This document shows positions 12,494 to 21,674 of a stretch of DNA of 38,429 nt, one piece after another. The stretch comes from a virus, in IMG/VR virus record IMGVR_UViG_3300034064_000796, positions 1 to 38,429 of that record, one strand, 5' to 3'. The notes under the pieces are model-generated. The model had not been told where the DNA came from. It did no database searches and worked only from the letters and a program-made list of their open reading frames with translations. Made by a program: the position numbers and the translations under genes. Position 1 is the first letter of the stretch, and each line of letters begins with the position of its first letter.

Positions 12494-15400
12494 TTATATA
12501 TAATATTGTATATGTATCCATCCATTGTTATATCCAGCTGATGCTCTACCTACAAGGAACTCATAAGTATTTGGTGCTCCTGTTGTTTTTATTCTAATTG
12601 CAGATGTTCCATTTCCAGTTGAAAATGTTCCAAATTGTTTATTACCTGCTAAATTTCCAGATCCATGTGTTATTACATCTAAAGCATTAGCATATATATT
12701 TGGGTGTTGTGGAATTTGTGGTATATCAGGCATATTAGCAAAAGGTATTGCTATACCACTACAAGTTCCAGCAGTCCCAAAATTTAGGTTTATTCTAACT
12801 GTCACTAAATTACCAACTTGTGACCATCTATAAAAATGCGTATTTGTTCCAGTTGGTATTGATCCTCCTGTAGCAATCATTCCTATTCCAGATAAAGACT
12901 GTTCTGCCACTTCTTTATATACTTGTTCTGTAGGAACTGCACTTGCATTTGTATTATTAGTTAAAATAGTATAGGCTGATTGAGCAGCAGCAGAAGCACT
13001 AATTGTTAGGTTACCTCCTCCTAAAAGACTATTTCCATTAATAGATTTAATATTTACGGTATTTTGTAAAGTGTCTTGTTTTGATGCAGCTAATCCACTA
13101 TATTGTGTATTAGTTGCATTGTCTCCTGTGTTGCTTCCACTTATTACTAATGGTATACTTTCAATATTTCCTGTATTAGGTCCACCAACTGTATTTACTG
13201 TTAAAAAATTATAGGATCCAAGACTTGTTGAAGGGGATGTAACTAATTTAATATTTCCATGTAAAACGGTTTCAGTTATAAGTGAATTACCTAAAACAGC
13301 TTGGTTGCTTTTAGTAGTGTATGCATTATTTCCTATAGCAATACTATTAATAACAGTGGTTACTTGTGGGGATATGGTATTGTCATCTTGTGATCCAAGA
13401 AAAGTATTTCTAGCACCAGTTACAGTATAACCTGCTTTGTAACCAAGTCCTGTGTTTAAGTTTGAACTTATATTAGCTGCAAGTGAATCTACACCTATTG
13501 AAGTGTTATATGCACCACCAAAATTTGAATATGATGCATATCTACCAACAGCAGTATTTTGAAAACCTCCAACATTACCTTGAAGGGCACTTGAACCAAC
13601 TGCAGTGTTCCAATTTGCATCAGTATTCTGTCTAAGTGCATCTTTACCAACTGCTGTATTTTCTTCTCCACTAGTGTTTGTTTTAAGTGCTTCAGACCCT
13701 ATTGCAGTATTTTGAAAACCTATTGTATTAGCTGCAAGTGTTCCTATACCAACTGCAGTATTGTTATTCCCAGTATTTGATTTAAGAGACTCAAACCCTA
13801 CTGCTGTATTATAAATACCAACATAAGGAATTGTAGGATTTTCAGAACTAGGCCCTCCAACATTATTTAAAAGAGCCTCTACTCCAATTGCAGTATTTTG
13901 ATACCCTGCAACATTATTTGCTAGAGCACTTTTACCAATTGCTGTATTATTATTTGCAGTATTTACTTTAAGTGCATTTACTCCAATAGCTGTATTATTA
14001 ACTGCAGTATTACCTACAGCTCCTCCTTTTCCAACAGTTAAAGCATTAACTACTAAGTCTTCAGTAAAACTTTTTATTCCTGCAAATGTTTGTGGATCAA
14101 TTGTTACTACTCCTCCAAAATTAAGTGAGGCAGGTTGTAAGTTTAAAACACTTCCTGTTATTGTAGCTCCATTTACATTAGGTGCAGAACCTATAGGATT
14201 CAATGTTATTGTTCCTCCAGTCCCAACACCAATAGCAGTTCTAAAATTTGCAGCACTTAAAAGACTTACTGTATTATCTGCATTAGCTCTTAAGAATGTT
14301 ATTGCTCCAGGATTTCCTACTGTAAAAATATTTGATCCAATTGTAGTTGCTCCTAAATTGGTTCTTGCACCTCCTGCAGTAGTTGCACCTGTTCCTCCAT
14401 TTGCAATAGCTAAAATACCAGCTAATGTAATTATTCCAGATGTGGCTGTACTTGGAGTTAATCCTGTTGTCCCTCCTGAAAATGAAGTAACTGCTGAAGT
14501 TAAGTATGTACTTGTATCATAACTAATAACACCAGCAGTAGATTTTACAAACCCTGTTCCTGATAAAGTATTTTGTTTAGAACTTGCTAACCCACTATAT
14601 AAACTGTTTACTGCATTATCTCCTGAATTATTATTAGTTGTATTATTAAGAACAACTAATTTTGCATCAGTAACATATCTTCTATTTGTTGAATCAGCTA
14701 TATCAGCAGTAGTTGCATCTGCTCCTACTGTAACTAATCCTTTTTCATCATAAGTTATCTTAGTTTTAGTAGTTCCTGTAATAGGAGTGTTTTTAACAAC
14801 TAGTTCACTTAAGTCTTGGTCACCTGTATTTGTTCCACTTATTGTAGGTTTGTTTAATATTTGAGCATCTCCACTAACTGCATTCCAATCAGCATTTACG
14901 TTTACTTCAGCACCTATTGCTATACCTGTAAGTTTATTTTTTTCTGTAGTTGTATAATCTTCAGTACTTAATCCTTTACCAGTAACTTTATCTACTTTTA
15001 AAGCGTCTTGAGTATTAACATAAGTTACAGTTGCTAAACCACTAACTGAAGGAATTACTGGTTTATTTAGTATTTGACTGTCTCCAGAAACTGAATTCCA
15101 ATCTGCATTGACATTAACTTCTGCTCCTGTAGCAATCCCTGCTAATTTATTCTTTTCAGAAGTTGTATAATTATTTAAAGTAGCCCCTGCTGAAGTACCG
15201 TTTCCTAATGGAATAGTAGCATCTGTTCCAGTATCACTATTAATAGTAAAATTAGTAGCAGTTTGAGTTGGAGATAAATTAGTAGAACCACTAGCAGAAG
15301 ATTCTTCTACTAACAAGTGTCCTGTACCTAAGTCTGCCCAATAATTACTATTAGTAGGAGGATATTGATTATCATTTATAAGACTTTTATATACATGCCC

Positions 15401-15571
15401 TTCAAACCATACAAAACAATCTAAGATATAAGGATTACCTAATGCCACAGAATGATTTGTAGACCACTCTATAGCACTTAAAGGAGAGTCTAAATCACTC
15501 TTTCTTATTAGACATTTTATTTGATCAACTAACCAATTAATGTCTTTCTTTATTTTTAATAGTTCTAACAT
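12494..15571 (-). CDS. long tail fibre with CBM5/12-like, tail-shaft and adhesin-head repeats
   Basis: 1025 residues. Short N-terminal coiled coil (KKDINWLVDQIKCLIRKS), then a CBM5/12-like aromatic segment (about 40-75: YILDCFVWFEGHVYKSLI ... NYWADLG). Two copies of a shaft repeat with TTSEKNKLAGIATGAEVNVN / ADWN-VSGD-QILNKP follow. Around residues 520-740 there are about eight or more repeats of the NTAIGxxALxxN type seen in trimeric adhesin heads. The C-terminal domain (HFYRWSQVGNLVTVRINLN to WIHIQYYI) looks like a beta-sandwich tip, similar in style to the tip of the collagen-like fibre at 1666-2682. It carries no intramolecular S74 chaperone. Probably the main long receptor-binding fibre. 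Confidence 0.8.
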   Translation of the reverse strand: MLELLKIKKDINWLVDQIKCLIRKSDLDSPLSAIEWSTNHSVALGNPYILDCFVWFEGHVYKSLINDNQYPPTNSNYWADLGTGHLLVEESSASGSTNLSPTQTATNFTINSDTGTDATIPLGNGTSAGATLNNYTTSEKNKLAGIATGAEVNVNADWNSVSGDSQILNKPVIPSVSGLATVTYVNTQDALKVDKVTGKGLSTEDYTTTEKNKLTGIAIGAEVNVNADWNAVSGDAQILNKPTISGTNTGDQDLSELVVKNTPITGTTKTKITYDEKGLVTVGADATTADIADSTNRRYVTDAKLVVLNNTTNNNSGDNAVNSLYSGLASSKQNTLSGTGFVKSTAGVISYDTSTYLTSAVTSFSGGTTGLTPSTATSGIITLAGILAIANGGTGATTAGGARTNLGATTIGSNIFTVGNPGAITFLRANADNTVSLLSAANFRTAIGVGTGGTITLNPIGSAPNVNGATITGSVLNLQPASLNFGGVVTIDPQTFAGIKSFTEDLVVNALTVGKGGAVGNTAVNNTAIGVNALKVNTANNNTAIGKSALANNVAGYQNTAIGVEALLNNVGGPSSENPTIPYVGIYNTAVGFESLKSNTGNNNTAVGIGTLAANTIGFQNTAIGSEALKTNTSGEENTAVGKDALRQNTDANWNTAVGSSALQGNVGGFQNTAVGRYASYSNFGGAYNTSIGVDSLAANISSNLNTGLGYKAGYTVTGARNTFLGSQDDNTISPQVTTVINSIAIGNNAYTTKSNQAVLGNSLITETVLHGNIKLVTSPSTSLGSYNFLTVNTVGGPNTGNIESIPLVISGSNTGDNATNTQYSGLAASKQDTLQNTVNIKSINGNSLLGGGNLTISASAAAQSAYTILTNNTNASAVPTEQVYKEVAEQSLSGIGMIATGGSIPTGTNTHFYRWSQVGNLVTVRINLNFGTAGTCSGIAIPFANMPDIPQIPQHPNIYANALDVITHGSGNLAGNKQFGTFSTGNGTSAIRIKTTGAPNTYEFLVGRASAGYNNGWIHIQYYI

Positions 15572-15582
15572 GAGATATAATA

Positions 15583-16179
15583 TTATTTTGTTAAATCAAA
15601 CAGTAACATACATTTATCATTGTAATGAGGATAACCTTCTTGACAATTTTCATTAATTAAATATACAGGATTCATATAAAAAGGGGCAATCATTAAATTA
15701 ATACACTTCCAACCTCCATCTATTATATCAGGATTTTGACTCCACTTAGTAAAACTAGTGGCTAATAGATATTTACTTCCACTTCTTTTTATATTCTCTA
15801 AAGCTTTTAATACATTTTCATTACTTAAATGCCCTAGACAATCTCTAACAAAAACTAAATCTGCTTTAGGTAACTCATCTTCAATTATATTTAATACGGT
15901 AAAAGATTTATTAGGATACCTAGTATTATTACTTTGTATTAATTCTTCAACTATATCTGCCCCTAAATAATTTATTTCACTTAAATCTACTTCTTTCATC
16001 CAATTAAAATCTCCACAAGGAATATCTAACATAGATGTGATCTCGTATTTTTTAAAGAGTATAGATAACTCTTTTCTTAATACTTCTGTATTTTGTAATT
16101 CTGAACCTGAACCACTTTTACTTTCAGCAGATGCCCAAAGATTATCAGTATAAATTTTTGTAAAAGTTTCTTTTACCAT
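15583..16179 (-). CDS. class I SAM-dependent methyltransferase
   Basis: 198 residues. Motif I is SMLDIPCGDFNWMKEVDL (about 49-66), with the SAM-binding acidic residue in the next strand (YLGADIVEEL, D75), a DLVFVRDCLGHLS motif (around 106-118) and a GGWKCINLMIAPF substrate-side region. The opening FTKIYTDNLWASAESKSGSG is typical of a family often encoded beside glycosyltransferases. The substrate is unknown. O-methylation of a glycan made by the adjacent glycosyltransferase is the most economical guess. It starts 4 nt after the glycosyltransferase stop, so the pair is probably co-translated. A DNA methyltransferase is unlikely because no target-recognition domain is present. Confidence 0.8.
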   Translation of the reverse strand: MVKETFTKIYTDNLWASAESKSGSGSELQNTEVLRKELSILFKKYEITSMLDIPCGDFNWMKEVDLSEINYLGADIVEELIQSNNTRYPNKSFTVLNIIEDELPKADLVFVRDCLGHLSNENVLKALENIKRSGSKYLLATSFTKWSQNPDIIDGGWKCINLMIAPFYMNPVYLINENCQEGYPHYNDKCMLLFDLTK

Positions 16180-16183
16180 ATTT

Positions 16184-17110
16184 TTATATTAAGATTGTTT
16201 GTTTTGCTGTTTCTTGAACTTCTTTCCAATAATAGGAACTTGCCCTGTTTTCATCTACTTGAATTACATCATTATAAGGTAAACTATTTATATATTTTGC
16301 CTTATAAAAAAGATTTACATCATTTCCAGAAACTCCTGCATTATGTAATATAAAGTATTTTTCTACAGAGGAAATAGGATCTGTACTCCAACCAAAATCT
16401 AACCTAGAATCTACTTTTGTTTCATACCCCTTTAACCAAATGTTCCAAAGCAAAGACCACATTCCTGCTGTCCATTTTTGTATTGGATAATCATTTTCAT
16501 ATTTTTCAATATGAAGGTGTTCTGTATTACAAAAGTAAGAATAAAGTTTGACACTATCACTCTCTACTTTATCCCAAAATTCAAAACTTTCTCCTATAGT
16601 AACATACTGAGCTCCTCCTGAATTACTATTCATTAATTTAGGTACTAAAGTACTTATACCTATAATCTCACACATTTTCTTATAAATATGATTACCTTTT
16701 TGTTGTATGTAATCATAATTAATATAAGAGTTAGTATTACTTAAATACCATATATTACCTGGCATTGCCCAATCTACTTCAGGAGGTCTTGTAAATATTA
16801 CATCACAATCATGCAAAAATAATCTTTGACCTATAAGATCTGGATTTGCTTTCATATGACTACTCATAAGATTAAAGTAAATAGAAGGAATATAACTCTT
16901 ATCTACTCTAGTATCATTATAAAAAAAGAACCTAATTGTGTTATAGTGGTTTTGTAGTTTTCTCCAAACTTCAGGAACTATATCATTATCTACAGCACAA
17001 AGGATGTCAATCTTATTAGGATTGACACCATGCTTTTTAAAATTATTTATTACTACTTCCACCTGCCAAGTGTAAAAATCATTTGCAGGTTGTGCACAAA
17101 TATATCTCAT
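16184..17110 (-). CDS. putative GT-A type glycosyltransferase
   Basis: 308 residues. LFLHDCDVIFTRPP gives a DxD motif (D101, D103) of the type that binds a metal and nucleotide sugar. NSNSGGAQYVTIG and KWTAGMWSLLWNIWLKGYET fit the acceptor side, and FILHNAGVSG a C-terminal His motif. The overall pattern recalls eukaryotic and viral peptidyl-serine or hydroxyproline O-glycosyltransferases more than LPS enzymes, though this is a weak resemblance. It lies immediately after four Ser/Thr-rich virion proteins and before a methyltransferase. The inferred role is to glycosylate virion Ser/Thr linkers. Alternatively it could modify the host's surface glycans to block superinfection. Confidence 0.65.
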   Translation of the reverse strand: MRYICAQPANDFYTWQVEVVINNFKKHGVNPNKIDILCAVDNDIVPEVWRKLQNHYNTIRFFFYNDTRVDKSYIPSIYFNLMSSHMKANPDLIGQRLFLHDCDVIFTRPPEVDWAMPGNIWYLSNTNSYINYDYIQQKGNHIYKKMCEIIGISTLVPKLMNSNSGGAQYVTIGESFEFWDKVESDSVKLYSYFCNTEHLHIEKYENDYPIQKWTAGMWSLLWNIWLKGYETKVDSRLDFGWSTDPISSVEKYFILHNAGVSGNDVNLFYKAKYINSLPYNDVIQVDENRASSYYWKEVQETAKQTILI

Positions 17111-17116
17111 ATTATA

Positions 17117-17896
17117 TTATTCACAGTTATCTGCAGAAGACTCAGCTCCAATTCCTCTAGGACCAGTCCCATTAGGGCCTTCATCTTCTGAACCATAGTA
17201 ATCATAATAACTACCAAAATCAAATTTTCTTGTTCTAAGATTAGTTACTAAAGTTCCTACAAATCTTAATGTATTAACAGGGTTAGGATTAGTATACCCT
17301 TGTGGCATTACAATATCCGTTCCTGCATTAAAATCATTTGCTATATTAGTACCAGGATTTATAGAGGAAGCAAATCCACTAGGTTCACCATTAGAAGGAA
17401 AGAAAACATACTCTCCACCAAAGTTCATAGTTGTATAAGACACAACATCTACAACACTTAAATAATCATCAATAAACTCTCCAAAAACTAAAGATGCACT
17501 AAAATCTACTGCTATATTTTGTATATAAGTTTCGTAAACAGCTCCTGAAGGAGGAGTATAACTACTCCAACTTGCACAAGCATTTACAGGATCTACTAAC
17601 TCGTCTGCTGTTGCAGTTATTCCACAAGCTTCTGGTTCTGGAGGAGAGGTAGTACTTGAAGTAGTTGTATCATTACTTGAAGTTAATACTACATCTATAT
17701 AATTGCTACATTCTGATACAGATTGTATTCTAATTGTTGTTGTCCCATTTGGAACTTCCATTGTATATCCTGGTGCCAATAATGTTGCTTTTGCTATTGG
17801 TGAGGTATTAATTATTGTAGAATAATTAATATTTGAAGATATATTAAATGGACCTGTAGAAGGTTGACTTGCTGTTAATGTTACTACTATTATCAT
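17117..17896 (-). CDS. decoration-array protein D: shared N-terminal module + unknown C-terminal domain
   Basis: 259 residues. Residues 1-72 follow the shared module of this array (TGPFNISSNINYS, then GYTMEVPNGTTTIRIQSVSE and CSNYIDVVL). A short Ser/Thr linker (NDTTTSSTTSPPEPEAC) leads to a unique C-terminal domain (YETYIQNIAVDFSASLVFGE ... NTLRFVGTLVTNLRTRKFDF) with an acidic, Gly-rich tail. No signal peptide is evident. I do not recognise the C-terminal domain. By comparison with its neighbours it is probably a virion surface protein with an anchor, a linker and an exchangeable tip. It is the last member of the array, 7 nt before the glycosyltransferase. Confidence 0.65.
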   Translation of the reverse strand: MIIVVTLTASQPSTGPFNISSNINYSTIINTSPIAKATLLAPGYTMEVPNGTTTIRIQSVSECSNYIDVVLTSSNDTTTSSTTSPPEPEACGITATADELVDPVNACASWSSYTPPSGAVYETYIQNIAVDFSASLVFGEFIDDYLSVVDVVSYTTMNFGGEYVFFPSNGEPSGFASSINPGTNIANDFNAGTDIVMPQGYTNPNPVNTLRFVGTLVTNLRTRKFDFGSYYDYYGSEDEGPNGTGPRGIGAESSADNCE

Positions 17897-17913: not shown

Positions 17914-18576
17914 TTAAAGTGTGTTAAGTTCTCTCCAAAATCTTCTTACTGCATAATAAGGCAATTCATTCCATTTATACATTCCTGGAATTACACTACC
18001 ATTTCCCATATTTACAGCTAATCCATACTGTGAATATTCTTCAGATGCCCAGTGAGCTATATTTAAAAAAGTTACTCCTGTTAAAGAAGCTCTATAATTC
18101 CATGCACGTTGCATTTGAGCTGTAGTAGGTAATCCCCAATCTTCATAACCTTGATGAACTACAGCTCTAGCTCCAAGAACAGCAGCTCCCCATTCTGCAA
18201 AAGATTCAGGAGTAGTCTTCATTATATATCCCCATGAATAATCAGGAGAAACTTCTATGATTACTCCTCCATTATATACTTGACCAATATATAAAGGAGA
18301 AAGAGGTTCAGGAGTAGGTTCAGGAACAGGGATAGGAAGAAGGTCTACAGTTACATCTACATAATCAGTACAACCTTCTCCATTTGCTAAAGATTGCACT
18401 CTGATTTTAGTTGTACCAATTGGTACTAATATAGAATCATACCCTGCAACTAATTGAGATTTTGCAATTTCAGATTCAAATTTGTAAGGAAAAGTAACTC
18501 CATCAAAACTTGAATATAAATCATAAAATGGTCCTGATGCTGTTCCTGTACTTGTTATTCTTATTTTAACTTTCAT
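17914..18576 (-). CDS. decoration-array protein C: shared N-terminal module + DUF1566-like domain
   Basis: 220 residues. The N-terminal module (1-80) has ASGPFYDLYSSFDGVTF and LVPIGTTKIRVQSLANGEGC. The linker is Pro-rich here (PIPVPEPTPEPLSP) instead of Ser/Thr-rich. The C-terminal domain (about 95-220) has YEDWGLPTTAQMQRAWNYRA, WASEEYS and YYAVRRFWRE, a diverged form of the DUF1566/Lcl C-type-lectin-like fold, whose hallmark is the DW-LP-x-EM and W-s-E-Y-s motifs. Members of this fold often bind ligands at the cell surface. It is probably a virion surface tip. Confidence 0.7.
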   Translation of the reverse strand: MKVKIRITSTGTASGPFYDLYSSFDGVTFPYKFESEIAKSQLVAGYDSILVPIGTTKIRVQSLANGEGCTDYVDVTVDLLPIPVPEPTPEPLSPLYIGQVYNGGVIIEVSPDYSWGYIMKTTPESFAEWGAAVLGARAVVHQGYEDWGLPTTAQMQRAWNYRASLTGVTFLNIAHWASEEYSQYGLAVNMGNGSVIPGMYKWNELPYYAVRRFWRELNTL

Positions 18577-18602: not shown

Positions 18603-19481
18603 TTAAAAGTATCTAGCTGGTCTAACATTAAATTCAAAGCCTCTTCCAAGGTCATTGTCTTCATAGCTAATTGGATCAGAAGTAAAATTATAAGCAGTAG
18701 CAATATTACCATAATATTCTGGACCTATTTCTGGATCTCCATCATTATAATAAATATTAGCACACCAATAGTTAGTACTTGTGTCAAACTCATCTACAGT
18801 AGTAGTATCAAAATTGCCAATTAGTGCCCTCCTATTATATATACGTCGCATTTCATTATTGTTAGGTAAAAACCAATCACTATATCCTCCTTGAGTTAAA
18901 TTTAAACAAGCATTTACTGCAGTAAAATTGTCTGCAAGTCCTACCAAATAAGCATTAGCTGCTGCCCCTTGTCCATATGCATATGGAGTATTACCTACAA
19001 CATCACTTCCTCCAAAAGGTAATTTTGTTGGTAAATCATACTCTGTAACAACAAGTCCATGTTGTTCCCCTTCAACATATCCAGTATCTCCTGGTATTGA
19101 AATATATGCTATAGTACCTCCTAAAGCTCTCTGACCTACATAATAAAGATTACTAATAACACCTGTTGCTGCAAAGTAACAAGGATCTACAGTAGTGGTA
19201 CTTGTAGTAGAAGTTGTACTACTACTTGAAGTAGTAGAACTACTTGTACTGATGCTTGTTATAGTTAAATCTATACTAGTAGGACATGAAACACTTGTAG
19301 AAGTTACTCTAATCTTAGTTGAACCATTTGGTACTGCTGAAGAAGAATATCCTTGACCAACTAATACTGATTTTTCAATACCTGAAACAAGTAATGTAAA
19401 GGTTGTTCCATTAATACTTGTATATAAATCAAATGGACCAGTACCTGTACCTGCTGCTGATAATATTGTTAAGACTGTCAT
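18603..19481 (-). CDS. decoration-array protein B: shared N-terminal module + Ser/Thr linker + DUF1566 domain
   Basis: 292 residues. Module 1-76 (TGPFDLYTSINGTTF, AVPNGSTKIRVTSTS, CPTSIDLTI), then a linker of almost pure Ser/Thr (about 77-98), a DPCYFAATG junction and a DUF1566 domain (about 110-292) with GGTIAYISIPGDTGYV, GGYSDWFLPNNNEMRRIYNR, YWCANIYYND and FEFNVRPARYF at the extreme C terminus. DUF1566 has a C-type-lectin-like fold and occurs in surface-binding proteins and in some variable proteins of diversity-generating retroelements. The predicted role is a virion tip binding host glycan or protein. No reverse transcriptase is present in this window. Confidence 0.75.
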   Translation of the reverse strand: MTVLTILSAAGTGTGPFDLYTSINGTTFTLLVSGIEKSVLVGQGYSSSAVPNGSTKIRVTSTSVSCPTSIDLTITSISTSSSTTSSSSTTSTTSTTTVDPCYFAATGVISNLYYVGQRALGGTIAYISIPGDTGYVEGEQHGLVVTEYDLPTKLPFGGSDVVGNTPYAYGQGAAANAYLVGLADNFTAVNACLNLTQGGYSDWFLPNNNEMRRIYNRRALIGNFDTTTVDEFDTSTNYWCANIYYNDGDPEIGPEYYGNIATAYNFTSDPISYEDNDLGRGFEFNVRPARYF

Positions 19482-19502: not shown

Positions 19503-20375
19503 TTAAATTGAGACTGCATTTCCTGCAAGAGTGCAGTCTAAAATTGTTGTTGTACTTGTTGTACTAGTAGTTGTTGTTGCAACCTTTCTATAATCCCATA
19601 TTAAATACGCATAACTTGATTGTGTAGGATTAACATCATAAAGAAAACTATCCCCTTCCCATGTAGGAGGATTTCCTGGCAGTAATTGTATATTTTGAAT
19701 TTGAGTTGCATTAGCAAGTATAGTTGCAATTTGTGCAGATGTATATTCTACTAATGAAATCAGATACCACATTTTATTACCAAGTGCAGGATTAAATACA
19801 ATATCATTAGGTAAAAAACTTTGAAAATCTTGACGTACCATAATCATGTCATTGACTTGTGGAGATGAGTAATCATACAATGATGTAACATTTGTTTGAA
19901 AAAGAGAAGGTTGTTGTACAGTTAGTATTACTCCACTATTATAATACCAATCTCCTAAAGGTAAATGACTGGTATAATTATATGATGGGCTATAAGTAAC
20001 TTTTCCACTATCTTCAGGATCATTAATAATTATTCCTGTTAAAGAATTAATTTGAGGTGGTTCAGTAGTAGTACTTGTTGTAGTACTAGTAGATGTACTA
20101 GTACTTGTGCTTGTTGATGTTGAACTACTTGTACTTGTACTACTAGTTGTAGTTAACAAACTTATAGGTATATCTATAGAATTACTACAATTATCTGTAG
20201 CAACTACTCTTATTATAGTTGCATTATTTGGAACATTAAGTAGTAAATATCCTTGTTGTTGTAATTGCAATTTTGTTAGTCCTGATATAATAGCAGTATT
20301 ATAATCTATATTAGAGTAAAGATTAAAAAGTGTTGTACTTGTCCCTGCTACTGATAATTTAACTAATACTGTCAT
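19503..20375 (-). CDS. decoration-array protein A: shared N-terminal module + Ser/Thr linkers + unknown domain
   Basis: 290 residues. Module 1-72 (MTVLVKLSVAGTSTTLFNLY, NVPNNATIIRVVATDNCSN), a ~35-residue pure Ser/Thr linker, then an unrecognised beta-rich domain (SLTGIIINDPEDSGKVTYSP ... SYAYLIWDYRKV), a second Thr/Ser linker, and a final 13 residues ILDCTLAGNAVSI. That end resembles the junction found after the linker in protein B (PCYFAATG) and the end of the 425-aa protein (PCIMIGNAQ), as if a further domain had been lost. It is probably a virion surface protein and a target for O-glycosylation. The domain function is unknown. Confidence 0.65.
   Translation of the reverse strand: MTVLVKLSVAGTSTTLFNLYSNIDYNTAIISGLTKLQLQQQGYLLLNVPNNATIIRVVATDNCSNSIDIPISLLTTTSSTSTSSSTSTSTSTSTSTSTTTSTTTEPPQINSLTGIIINDPEDSGKVTYSPSYNYTSHLPLGDWYYNSGVILTVQQPSLFQTNVTSLYDYSSPQVNDMIMVRQDFQSFLPNDIVFNPALGNKMWYLISLVEYTSAQIATILANATQIQNIQLLPGNPPTWEGDSFLYDVNPTQSSYAYLIWDYRKVATTTTSTTSTTTILDCTLAGNAVSI
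20064..20155 (-). repeat. Ser/Thr-coding low-complexity repeat in protein A
   Basis: The + strand reads as reiterated tagtactag / cttgtactt type triplets (actagtacttgt and variants), coding in reverse for an uninterrupted Thr/Ser run. Unit lengths are multiples of three. The array can expand or contract in frame. Confidence 0.75.
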
Positions 20376-20396: not shown

Positions 20397-21674
20397 TTAA
20401 TAATCTGTTTGTTGGGCATTTCCTATCATAATACAAGGATTTGTAGTAGTACTTGTACTGCTTGTACTGCTTGTACTGCTTGTACTAGTTGAAGAAGTAC
20501 TAGATGTACTAGATGTACTACTTGTACTAGAAGTACTACTTGTAATACAACTAATCTCTTCACAAGTAGTTGCACCACTAGAGTTTAAAATATAGTATGC
20601 TGGACTACCAGGGACAACTTGCACAAGTTCAAGAATTAAAAGTTTATAAGGTACACTTGGAATGGTATAATATTTTCCAACTGTTAATTCTTGAGAATTA
20701 CCAAGTGATCCACCACCGAAATTAACACATGTATCACATGTAATCCTACTGAAAGTATAAGTCCAAACCATTGAAGGAGGGGTACTAGTAGTACTAGAAG
20801 TACTGGTACTAGATGTACTAGAGGTACTTGAAATAGGTAATGTAGTTGTGCTACTTGTAGAACTTGTACTAGAAATAGGTAGAGTAGTTGTAGGTGCAGC
20901 AGTAGTTATAGAAGAAGGGTCTGTAGGTATAATACCTATCTCTCTTATACATGTACTCACTATATCAAAATTATATTTACTTGTAATATAATCTTTTTCT
21001 TCTTGACTTACTGCCAAAGCTTTGTCTTGGTAGTAAAAACTTAAATAATAAGAACTAATAATACTTAACATAGTTCTTTCTATTTTTGCATTTCCATATA
21101 TTTTTTCATGTAATAAACTGCAAAGTACTTCTTGAGTATAAAGACAAATATTATTTTGTGTAGTTTGATTTATATAATTTTGATATGTAGGATAGTTAAT
21201 TGTGTTAAAAGCTTGAGCTTTCATAAAAGCTTCTAAGTAATCTTCACATTGATTATACCCTCCACAGTCTCCACATTTACCTCCTGATCCTGAATGTCCT
21301 CCTGAATGTCCTCCAGAGTTTGATCCAGAGTTTGAACCCATCCCTGAACTTGAACTTGAACTTGAACCTCCTCCCCCTGAACTTGTCCCACATATAGTTT
21401 GTTGTGCCATTAAGACAAAAGAGCTCAATAGATTTTCGTAATATTTAATAGTAAAAGGAACACTGGTTTCTGTAGAAGAACTTAAATAAATAGAATAGTT
21501 TCCATCTGTTGCAAAAGTTAAAACTACTGTTTGATTAGGTGTAATTACTCCTGTCTTTATTTCAGTAGTTGCATCACAAGTTACTTTACTTACATGGTAA
21601 GTAAGATCTACTGTTCCAGTATTTTTAAGTGTATGAGTGTCTTTGTATTTTAAGTATGTGTAATTCAAAGCCAT
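20397..21674 (-). CDS. Ser/Thr-rich multidomain virion protein (array head gene)
   Basis: 425 residues. Residues 1-90 form an Ig-like beta domain (LKNTGTVDLTYHVSKVTCDA ... DGNYSIYLSSSTE). Residues about 96-140 are a Gly/Ser/His-rich stretch ending in CGDCGG. Residues 141-255 look helical (CEDYLEAFMKAQAFN ... YITSKYNFDIVSTCIREIG). Then follow Thr/Ser linkers, a small domain (VWTYTFSRITCDTCVNFGGG ... ATTCEEISC), a long TSS-repeat tract and the end NPCIMIGNAQQTDY. It is the first gene after a strong terminator and the first of the accessory array. Its N-terminal domain differs from the four that follow. Probably a virion protein that supports or joins the decoration array, but I do not recognise the family. 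Confidence 0.65.
   Translation of the reverse strand: MALNYTYLKYKDTHTLKNTGTVDLTYHVSKVTCDATTEIKTGVITPNQTVVLTFATDGNYSIYLSSSTETSVPFTIKYYENLLSSFVLMAQQTICGTSSGGGGSSSSSSSGMGSNSGSNSGGHSGGHSGSGGKCGDCGGYNQCEDYLEAFMKAQAFNTINYPTYQNYINQTTQNNICLYTQEVLCSLLHEKIYGNAKIERTMLSIISSYYLSFYYQDKALAVSQEEKDYITSKYNFDIVSTCIREIGIIPTDPSSITTAAPTTTLPISSTSSTSSTTTLPISSTSSTSSTSTSSTTSTPPSMVWTYTFSRITCDTCVNFGGGSLGNSQELTVGKYYTIPSVPYKLLILELVQVVPGSPAYYILNSSGATTCEEISCITSSTSSTSSTSSTSSTSSTSTSSTSSTSSTSTTTNPCIMIGNAQQTDY
20443..20546 (-). repeat. Ser/Thr-coding tract with four perfect 9-nt tandem repeats
   Basis: Within this tract the 9-mer cttgtactg occurs in tandem at 20452-20460, 20461-20469 and 20470-20478, followed by cttgtacta at 20479-20487. 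Reverse-strand translation gives the T-S-S repeat. A second Ser/Thr tract in the same gene lies at about 20781-20890. Confidence 0.8.

Follow-up and report, generated by a model that had tools for sequence, protein, structure and literature searches.

The glycosyltransferases (GTs) of the phage protein family PHROG 4417 very probably O-glycosylate Ser/Thr tags on virion proteins, as judged from their position next to Ser/Thr tracts and from the linked presence of tract and enzyme among close relatives. We regard it as highly likely that the modified tags or linkers belong to the phage's own virion proteins, with a methyltransferase (MTase) of PHROG 3382 as an optional partner that would O-methylate the sugar. 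The locus from which we started lies in IMGVR_UViG_3300034064_000796, a 38,429-base virus contig analysed over its whole length and referred to here as the window. The original prediction for this DNA, that the GT modifies the adjacent Ser/Thr linkers, gains support from the gene neighbourhoods of GT homologues and from the gain or loss of tracts together with the GT in four comparisons.

Organization of the glycosyltransferase locus

The minus strand of the window carries, in order, A5, A4, A3, A2, A1, the GT, the MTase and a long tail-fibre-like protein. The GT gene (16184..17110, 308 residues) is preceded by a spacer of 6 nt (TATAAT) and the MTase gene (15583..16179, 198 residues) by one of 4 nt (AAAT); gaps of 7 and 4 nt had been read earlier, of which the second was exact. 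The portal, terminase and major capsid protein of the window match PHROG families. TerL is closest to those of Flavobacterium psychrophilum phages (69% identity), and crAssphage and Bacteroides phage records were also matched. The cultured relative FpV21 is filed as Fipvunavirus and its record shows no crAss-like order. The tail-fibre-like protein (12494-15571) contains NTAIGxxAL-type repeats, reminiscent of trimeric autotransporter head repeats, and has partial matches to PHROG tail spike and virion structural families.

A1 to A4, encoded like A5 on the minus strand, have in common an approximately 70-residue N-terminal domain, which is followed by a spacer and then by C-terminal domains that differ. 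In A4 (19503..20375), a putative acceptor, a Ser/Thr tract at residues 74-105 (20061..20156) precedes a C-terminal domain of its own, and a second tract occupies residues 266-278 (19542..19580). A3 (18603..19481), likewise a putative acceptor, has a tract at residues 75-98 (19188..19259) ahead of an Lcl_C-like C-terminal domain. The spacer of A2 (17914..18576) is rich in Pro and probably provides no acceptor. A1 (17117..17896), directly 5' of the GT, is a weak putative acceptor with a short Ser/Thr run, TSSNDTTTSSTTSPP (residues 72-86, 17639..17683, located manually on the translated sequence), in which Ser/Thr reach at most 11/20. A5 (20397..21674) is a putative virion surface protein and putative acceptor, comprised of a conserved N-terminal part of about 250 residues and a Ser/Thr-rich C-terminal part with tracts at residues 267-299 (20778..20876) and 377-412 (20439..20546). 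Thus, the four Ser/Thr-linker proteins initially described reduce to three plus one weak candidate, since near-pure tracts were found in A3, A4 and A5, but the A1 run is short and the A2 spacer Pro-rich.

The near-pure runs of A3, A4 and A5 are 13 to 36 residues long, reach 20/20 Ser/Thr in the best 20-residue segment, and sum to 24, 45 and 68 tract residues, respectively. These runs are unexpected from composition, since shuffling each protein rarely gave a segment with at least 11/12 Ser/Thr (P = 0.0002 for A3, 0.0014 for A4 and 0.014 for A5). The tract codons are mixed, with both TCN and AGY for Ser and ACA, ACT and ACC for Thr, which indicates that the runs are maintained at the protein level and rules out an origin as DNA microsatellites.

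The C-terminal part of A3, and more weakly that of A2, resembles Lcl_C, a bacterial adhesin C-terminal domain, at a score below the cut-off. Such parts could possibly act as carbohydrate-binding head groups on stalks, and an arrangement of anchor, stalk and head group is a reasonable picture of A1 to A4.

PHROG 4417 has a predicted retaining GT-A fold

The GT matches the PHROG 4417 profile, labelled as "unknown function", over residues 1-301 of 308 (6.3e-68). Its structure model has a pLDDT of 95, and Foldseek matched it in the PDB to retaining GT-A enzymes, namely UGGT, glycogenin, LARGE1, xyloside xylosyltransferase and GT6 enzymes (E down to 1e-7, probability 1.00, TM-score mostly 0.4-0.6). 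The DxD motif anticipated from the sequence is D101-C-D103. Both aspartates, together with H256, are invariant over 16 diverse PHROG 4417 members, including cultured-phage enzymes that are about 31-40% identical to the window GT. By analogy with GT8, H256 would be a metal ligand. Among viral proteins the GT matches GT8-annotated proteins and a protein of Lactobacillus phage LP65. No named GT family in Pfam or NCBIfam and no sequence-related PDB chain was found for the window GT, and we therefore assign it a GT-A fold that is GT8-like without filing it as GT8. Matches to glycyl-tRNA synthetase (E 0.016 and 0.0021) lay far below the cut-offs and were rejected as chance. PHROG 4417 is thus predicted, from the model, to be a GT-A nucleotide-sugar transferase of the retaining mode.

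At L044:9992-11986, L051:9749-11965 and L060:9977-11968, the GT reading frame extends into an additional domain. For L044 and L051 this part was recognised above the cut-off as a radical SAM-SPASM enzyme, and it looks similar by eye in L060; further tailoring of the sugar or of the peptide is a possible role.

Ser/Thr tracts lie just upstream of the glycosyltransferase in unrelated phages

We surveyed 80 fetched IMG/VR loci with GT homologues of 57-91% identity, defining a tract strictly as a stretch of 12 or more residues in which Ser/Thr make up 85% or more. After dereplication at 95% GT identity, the gene immediately 5' of the GT encoded a tract in 38/53 loci, and the count was 13/22 and 8/15 at 80% and 70%. 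The background rate in genes more than three positions from the GT was 1.4-1.8% (9/612, or 1.5%, in the 95% set), giving Fisher P values of 6e-41, 6e-14 and 1e-8 at the three levels, with dereplication based on identity and no tree. Tracts were absent from genes +1 to +8 from the GT among the surveyed loci. Where the contig extends 3 kb or more upstream (66 loci), 59 loci had a tract within eight genes upstream of the GT. Seven had none by the strict definition, and in three of these (L031, L058 and L062) the gene that adjoins the GT encodes a Thr-rich run that is shorter or broken up by Pro.

A full-length GT was found in 74 phage records, mostly from Lactobacillus, Enterococcus, Staphylococcus and Lactococcus phages, with one from Arcanobacterium, one from Chryseobacterium and none from Flavobacterium phages. 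Sixteen of these records were inspected, and in 16/16 a tract precedes the GT by no more than about 760 nt. Such tracts form, for example, the C-terminal ends of the tail proteins of phiFL1A (TTTTTSTTTTTTSSTTTTTTTQASSK) and phage 1706 (VTTTTTTTTTTHHD) and of the capsid protein of CHPC836 (APTTTTTTQATTTTTSHA). The tagged proteins examined are mostly major head or tail proteins by PHROG. With the cultured phages included, single-linkage clustering sorts the tract proteins into 17 families, and the surrounding structural genes differ between loci; in a Herellevirus example, the tract gene upstream of the GT adjoins replication genes. The depositor's note for the tract protein of Lactobacillus phage LpeD (L387:2584-2988) names equine herpesvirus glycoprotein gp2, a label that probably stems only from Ser/Thr-rich composition.

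Searching contigs of bacterial genomes with the Enterococcus-type GT yielded six copies, read as prophages (Enterococcus, Lentibacillus, Lactiplantibacillus and Gracilibacillus), all six with a tag on the protein just upstream; the window-type GT alignment gave no relatives in such a search. The tagged protein is a 4995_1-type capsid in two of the copies (L391 and L396) and capsid-, tail- or Ig-like by eye in the other four. The neighbourhood survey, which had been put forward as a check of the original prediction, therefore places GT homologues beside Ser/Thr-tract virion proteins and not beside host polysaccharide genes, the six bacterial-genome copies included.

A reverse scan, blind to the GT, for nine consecutive Thr codons returned at least 120 viral loci. 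Among the poly-Thr matches listed (L094-L213), most tract proteins have no PHROG 4417 enzyme nearby; the GT is present in 13, and in 12 of these it is one gene from the tract protein. A tract alone thus does not imply the GT, and tracts have other enzymes or uses too.

Tag and enzyme are gained and lost together among close relatives

If the GT acts on the tag, then both are expected to be present or absent together. We compared four unrelated groups of tagged proteins. In the capsid-anchored crAss-like relatives of the window, the tract occurs in 4/4 with the GT and 0/25 without it (3 versus 22 when dereplicated by identity, P = 4e-4). In the GT-less relatives, A5 keeps its first approximately 250 residues, followed by an ordinary C-terminal domain and no tract, and the cultured relative FpV21 has no tract either. 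The phiFL1A-type enterococcal tail protein has a tract in 3/3 phages with the GT and 0/11 without. The enterococcal HK97-type capsid, dereplicated, was scored as tagged in 15/17 with the GT and 0/6 without; in the two apparent exceptions, L451 and L455, the capsid ORF is frameshifted but the tag remains encoded, which brings the count to 17/17. The Lactobacillus iLp84-type capsid, dereplicated, is tagged in 26/26 with the GT and 0/24 without (P = 8e-15). In the closest iLp84-type pairs, the aligned body of the capsids shares 94-99% identity with the query, and the ends diverge, reading VLIPKP without the GT and VLVPGKTTTTTTSHG with it. Since dereplication was by identity and not by tree, these P values overstate independence, and the weight rests on the agreement of the four unrelated comparisons.

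Two other accounts of the gene order were weighed. The GT may target the host surface, for receptor change or superinfection exclusion, or the phage DNA, so that its place beside tract proteins is incidental. Such functions are common among other phage GTs, as is generally known and as the review PMC12619734 states. Yet this account does not explain the 26/26 versus 0/24 pattern and the three other comparisons, nor the strict position of the GT immediately 3' of tract proteins among unrelated phages, and genes for DNA modification or envelope synthesis were not seen beside the GT in the loci read. We consider it very improbable. Alternatively, tag and GT may be linked by descent only, as co-carried neighbours without functional relation. 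Most often the gene adjoining the GT bears the main tag, and a single recombination event could move both. However, tags are also found at a distance: in phiFL1A-type phages the capsid, several genes from the GT, is tagged too, in 4995-type prophages there is another tagged ORF about 2.9 kb downstream, and the A5 of crAss-like phages lies one to four genes away from the GT. Together with the spread of tagged proteins over 17 single-linkage families, this leaves linkage by descent with only a slight chance of being correct. The adjacency and linked presence are best accounted for by glycosylation of the virion tags.

The association is also not specific to crAss-like phages, as the original wording had implied, although crAss-like relatives do carry tract and GT together. 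We propose that it probably represents a portable form of glyco-tagging, in which a short Ser/Thr tag, mostly poly-Thr, on capsid, tail or decoration proteins is paired with a cognate PHROG 4417 enzyme and, optionally, with enzymes for further tailoring (MTases, a second GT or radical SAM), across unrelated Bacillota and Bacteroidota phages and one Arcanobacterium phage record; in some of them only a fraction of subunits would be tagged, by frameshifting.

Tags with possible programmed frameshifting

Five phages (VPE25, phage 9183, two staphylococcal phages and TPWB06) encode a long Ser/Thr tag that spans the stop codon of the capsid or tail gene in a shifted frame, -1 or +1 (for example AGCAAAGTAA and CTCCCTAA; out-of-frame tags at L086:5725-5883, L384:4770-4892, L088:5649-5930, L089:5611-5931 and L386:3660-3926). 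Judged by its annotated capsid, VPE25 seemed to be an exception, but a -1 frame that overlaps the capsid stop encodes the tag, and the major tail protein carries an in-frame tag. The arrangement of reading frames suggests that programmed ribosomal frameshifting may tag only part of the subunits in some phages.

A PHROG 3382 methyltransferase as an optional partner

The class I methyltransferase recognised in the initial reading was confirmed by a match to PHROG 3382, "methyltransferase" (2.4e-52), and by a model with a generic class I MTase fold (pLDDT 94). Matches to Pfam class I MTases were weak and below the cut-off. The invariant residues D52, C55, G56 and D57 agree with the SAM-binding motif of a Rossmann-like, SAM-dependent enzyme.

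Wherever the contig covers the region, PHROG 3382 homologues above 60% identity lie directly 3' of the GT or one gene on, with a different order in L332; in L324 the gene in between resembles an MTase too. GT and MTase are joined into a single ORF in L070. Other GT fusions involve Methyltransf_24 domains, a GT2-like domain (below the cut-off) and the radical SAM-SPASM enzyme. Distant PHROG 3382 homologues adjoin GT2, FkbM, Gb3_synth-type and UDP-GlcNAc 2-epimerase genes, and one lies in a cyanophage sugar cluster. In mycobacteriophage Ariel, a GT-GT-kinase-MTase cassette with a PHROG 3382-type MTase directly follows the major capsid gene (L091:3088-5525). The Ariel cassette thus places a Ser/Thr kinase beside virion-modifying enzymes.

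The best reading of this neighbourhood and fusion evidence, and a fairly likely one, is that the MTase methylates the glycan, making it a probable glycan methyltransferase. The earlier view that it methylates the linkers was right in that a methyltransferase is present, but the glycan is the more likely target than the linker itself. A protein side chain, protein termini or an unrelated target would fit with the N-methyltransferases NodS and NRMT2, which are among the closest Foldseek matches, and with the absence of an MTase counterpart at many GT loci. Against such a target stand the L070 fusion, the company that distant homologues keep with sugar genes and with the capsid-adjacent cassette of Ariel, and the O-methyltransferase that accompanies capsid-modifying GTs in cluster O mycobacteriophages, as given in PMC11600133; we judge it rather unlikely.

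Proposed modification of virion tags

We infer the following course of events. A cytoplasmic GT-A enzyme of the phage would take a host nucleotide-sugar as donor and move the sugar by retaining transfer to Thr/Ser of the unfolded tag, before or during assembly. In the window the acceptors would be A5, A4, A3 and, weakly, A1; elsewhere they would be poly-Thr tags at the C-terminus of major capsid, major tail or decoration proteins. PHROG 3382, as an optional second enzyme, would most likely O-methylate the attached sugar. The outcome would be a virion bearing dense, mucin-like glycosylated stalks. Virions assemble in the cytoplasm, so host periplasmic O-glycosylation would miss them and a phage-borne cytoplasmic enzyme could reach them. 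By analogy with mucins, dense glycans would stiffen, hydrate and protect the disordered Thr/Ser stalk. They may in this way bear on particle stability, diffusion, adhesion or escape from binding; mucus adhesion, epitope masking and linker protection, as first suggested, are candidate benefits of this sort.

Comparison with known glycosylation systems

In Gram-positive bacteria, serine-rich repeat (SRR) adhesins are Ser/Thr-rich proteins glycosylated in the cytoplasm by GtfA/GtfB from the same locus; GtfA/GtfB have a GT-B fold, and an accessory Sec system exports the adhesins. The likeness is a dedicated GT at the same locus as a Ser/Thr-rich protein, with glycosylation in our case a proposal; here, in contrast, the GT is GT-A and the putative acceptors are virion proteins. 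Chloroviruses encode GTs that modify their own major capsid protein, but these are unrelated viruses of algae, and we know of no Ser/Thr tag system in them. The mucin domains of animals are runs of Thr/Ser, with Pro, that carry dense O-glycans and form stiff stalks. This likeness is by analogy only, as other enzymes and organisms are involved and the glycan is here a prediction from genomic evidence and structure models.

The closest precedent is in mycobacteriophages. PMC12619734 and PMC12363180 cite work on mycobacteriophage GTs that glycosylate the C-termini of the phage's own capsid and tail-tube proteins. Virion glycosylation in phages Che8, Corndog and Myrna is credited to Freeman et al. 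2023 in PMC12363180, PMC12619734 and PMC11600133, and PMC11600133 places an O-methyltransferase beside these GTs in cluster O mycobacteriophages. The kind of system is thus already known. As in the window, phage-encoded GTs lie near capsid genes in the mycobacteriophages described there, and the Ariel GT cassette holds a PHROG 3382 homologue. The two differ in that the PHROG 4417 profile has no significant match to the three Ariel GTs (E 0.28-1.3, even in a very small search space), and in that the Ariel major capsid protein has no terminal Ser/Thr tract. The pairing of the tag with PHROG 4417, that is of Thr-rich or poly-Thr phage proteins with this glycosyltransferase, was not found described in the open-licence literature, and its novelty is provisional.

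On this basis, a widespread phage family annotated as unknown would gain a specific, testable function, and the puzzling poly-threonine tails that capsid and tail proteins carry in phages of Enterococcus, Lactobacillus, Lactococcus and Staphylococcus would be explained. Virion glycosylation would become testable in many cultured phages beyond the mycobacteriophages, and the near-identical capsid pairs with and without tag and enzyme offer ready comparisons for the role of virion glycans. A one-enzyme, cytoplasmic glycosyltransferase acting on a short tag could also serve as a protein-labelling tool.
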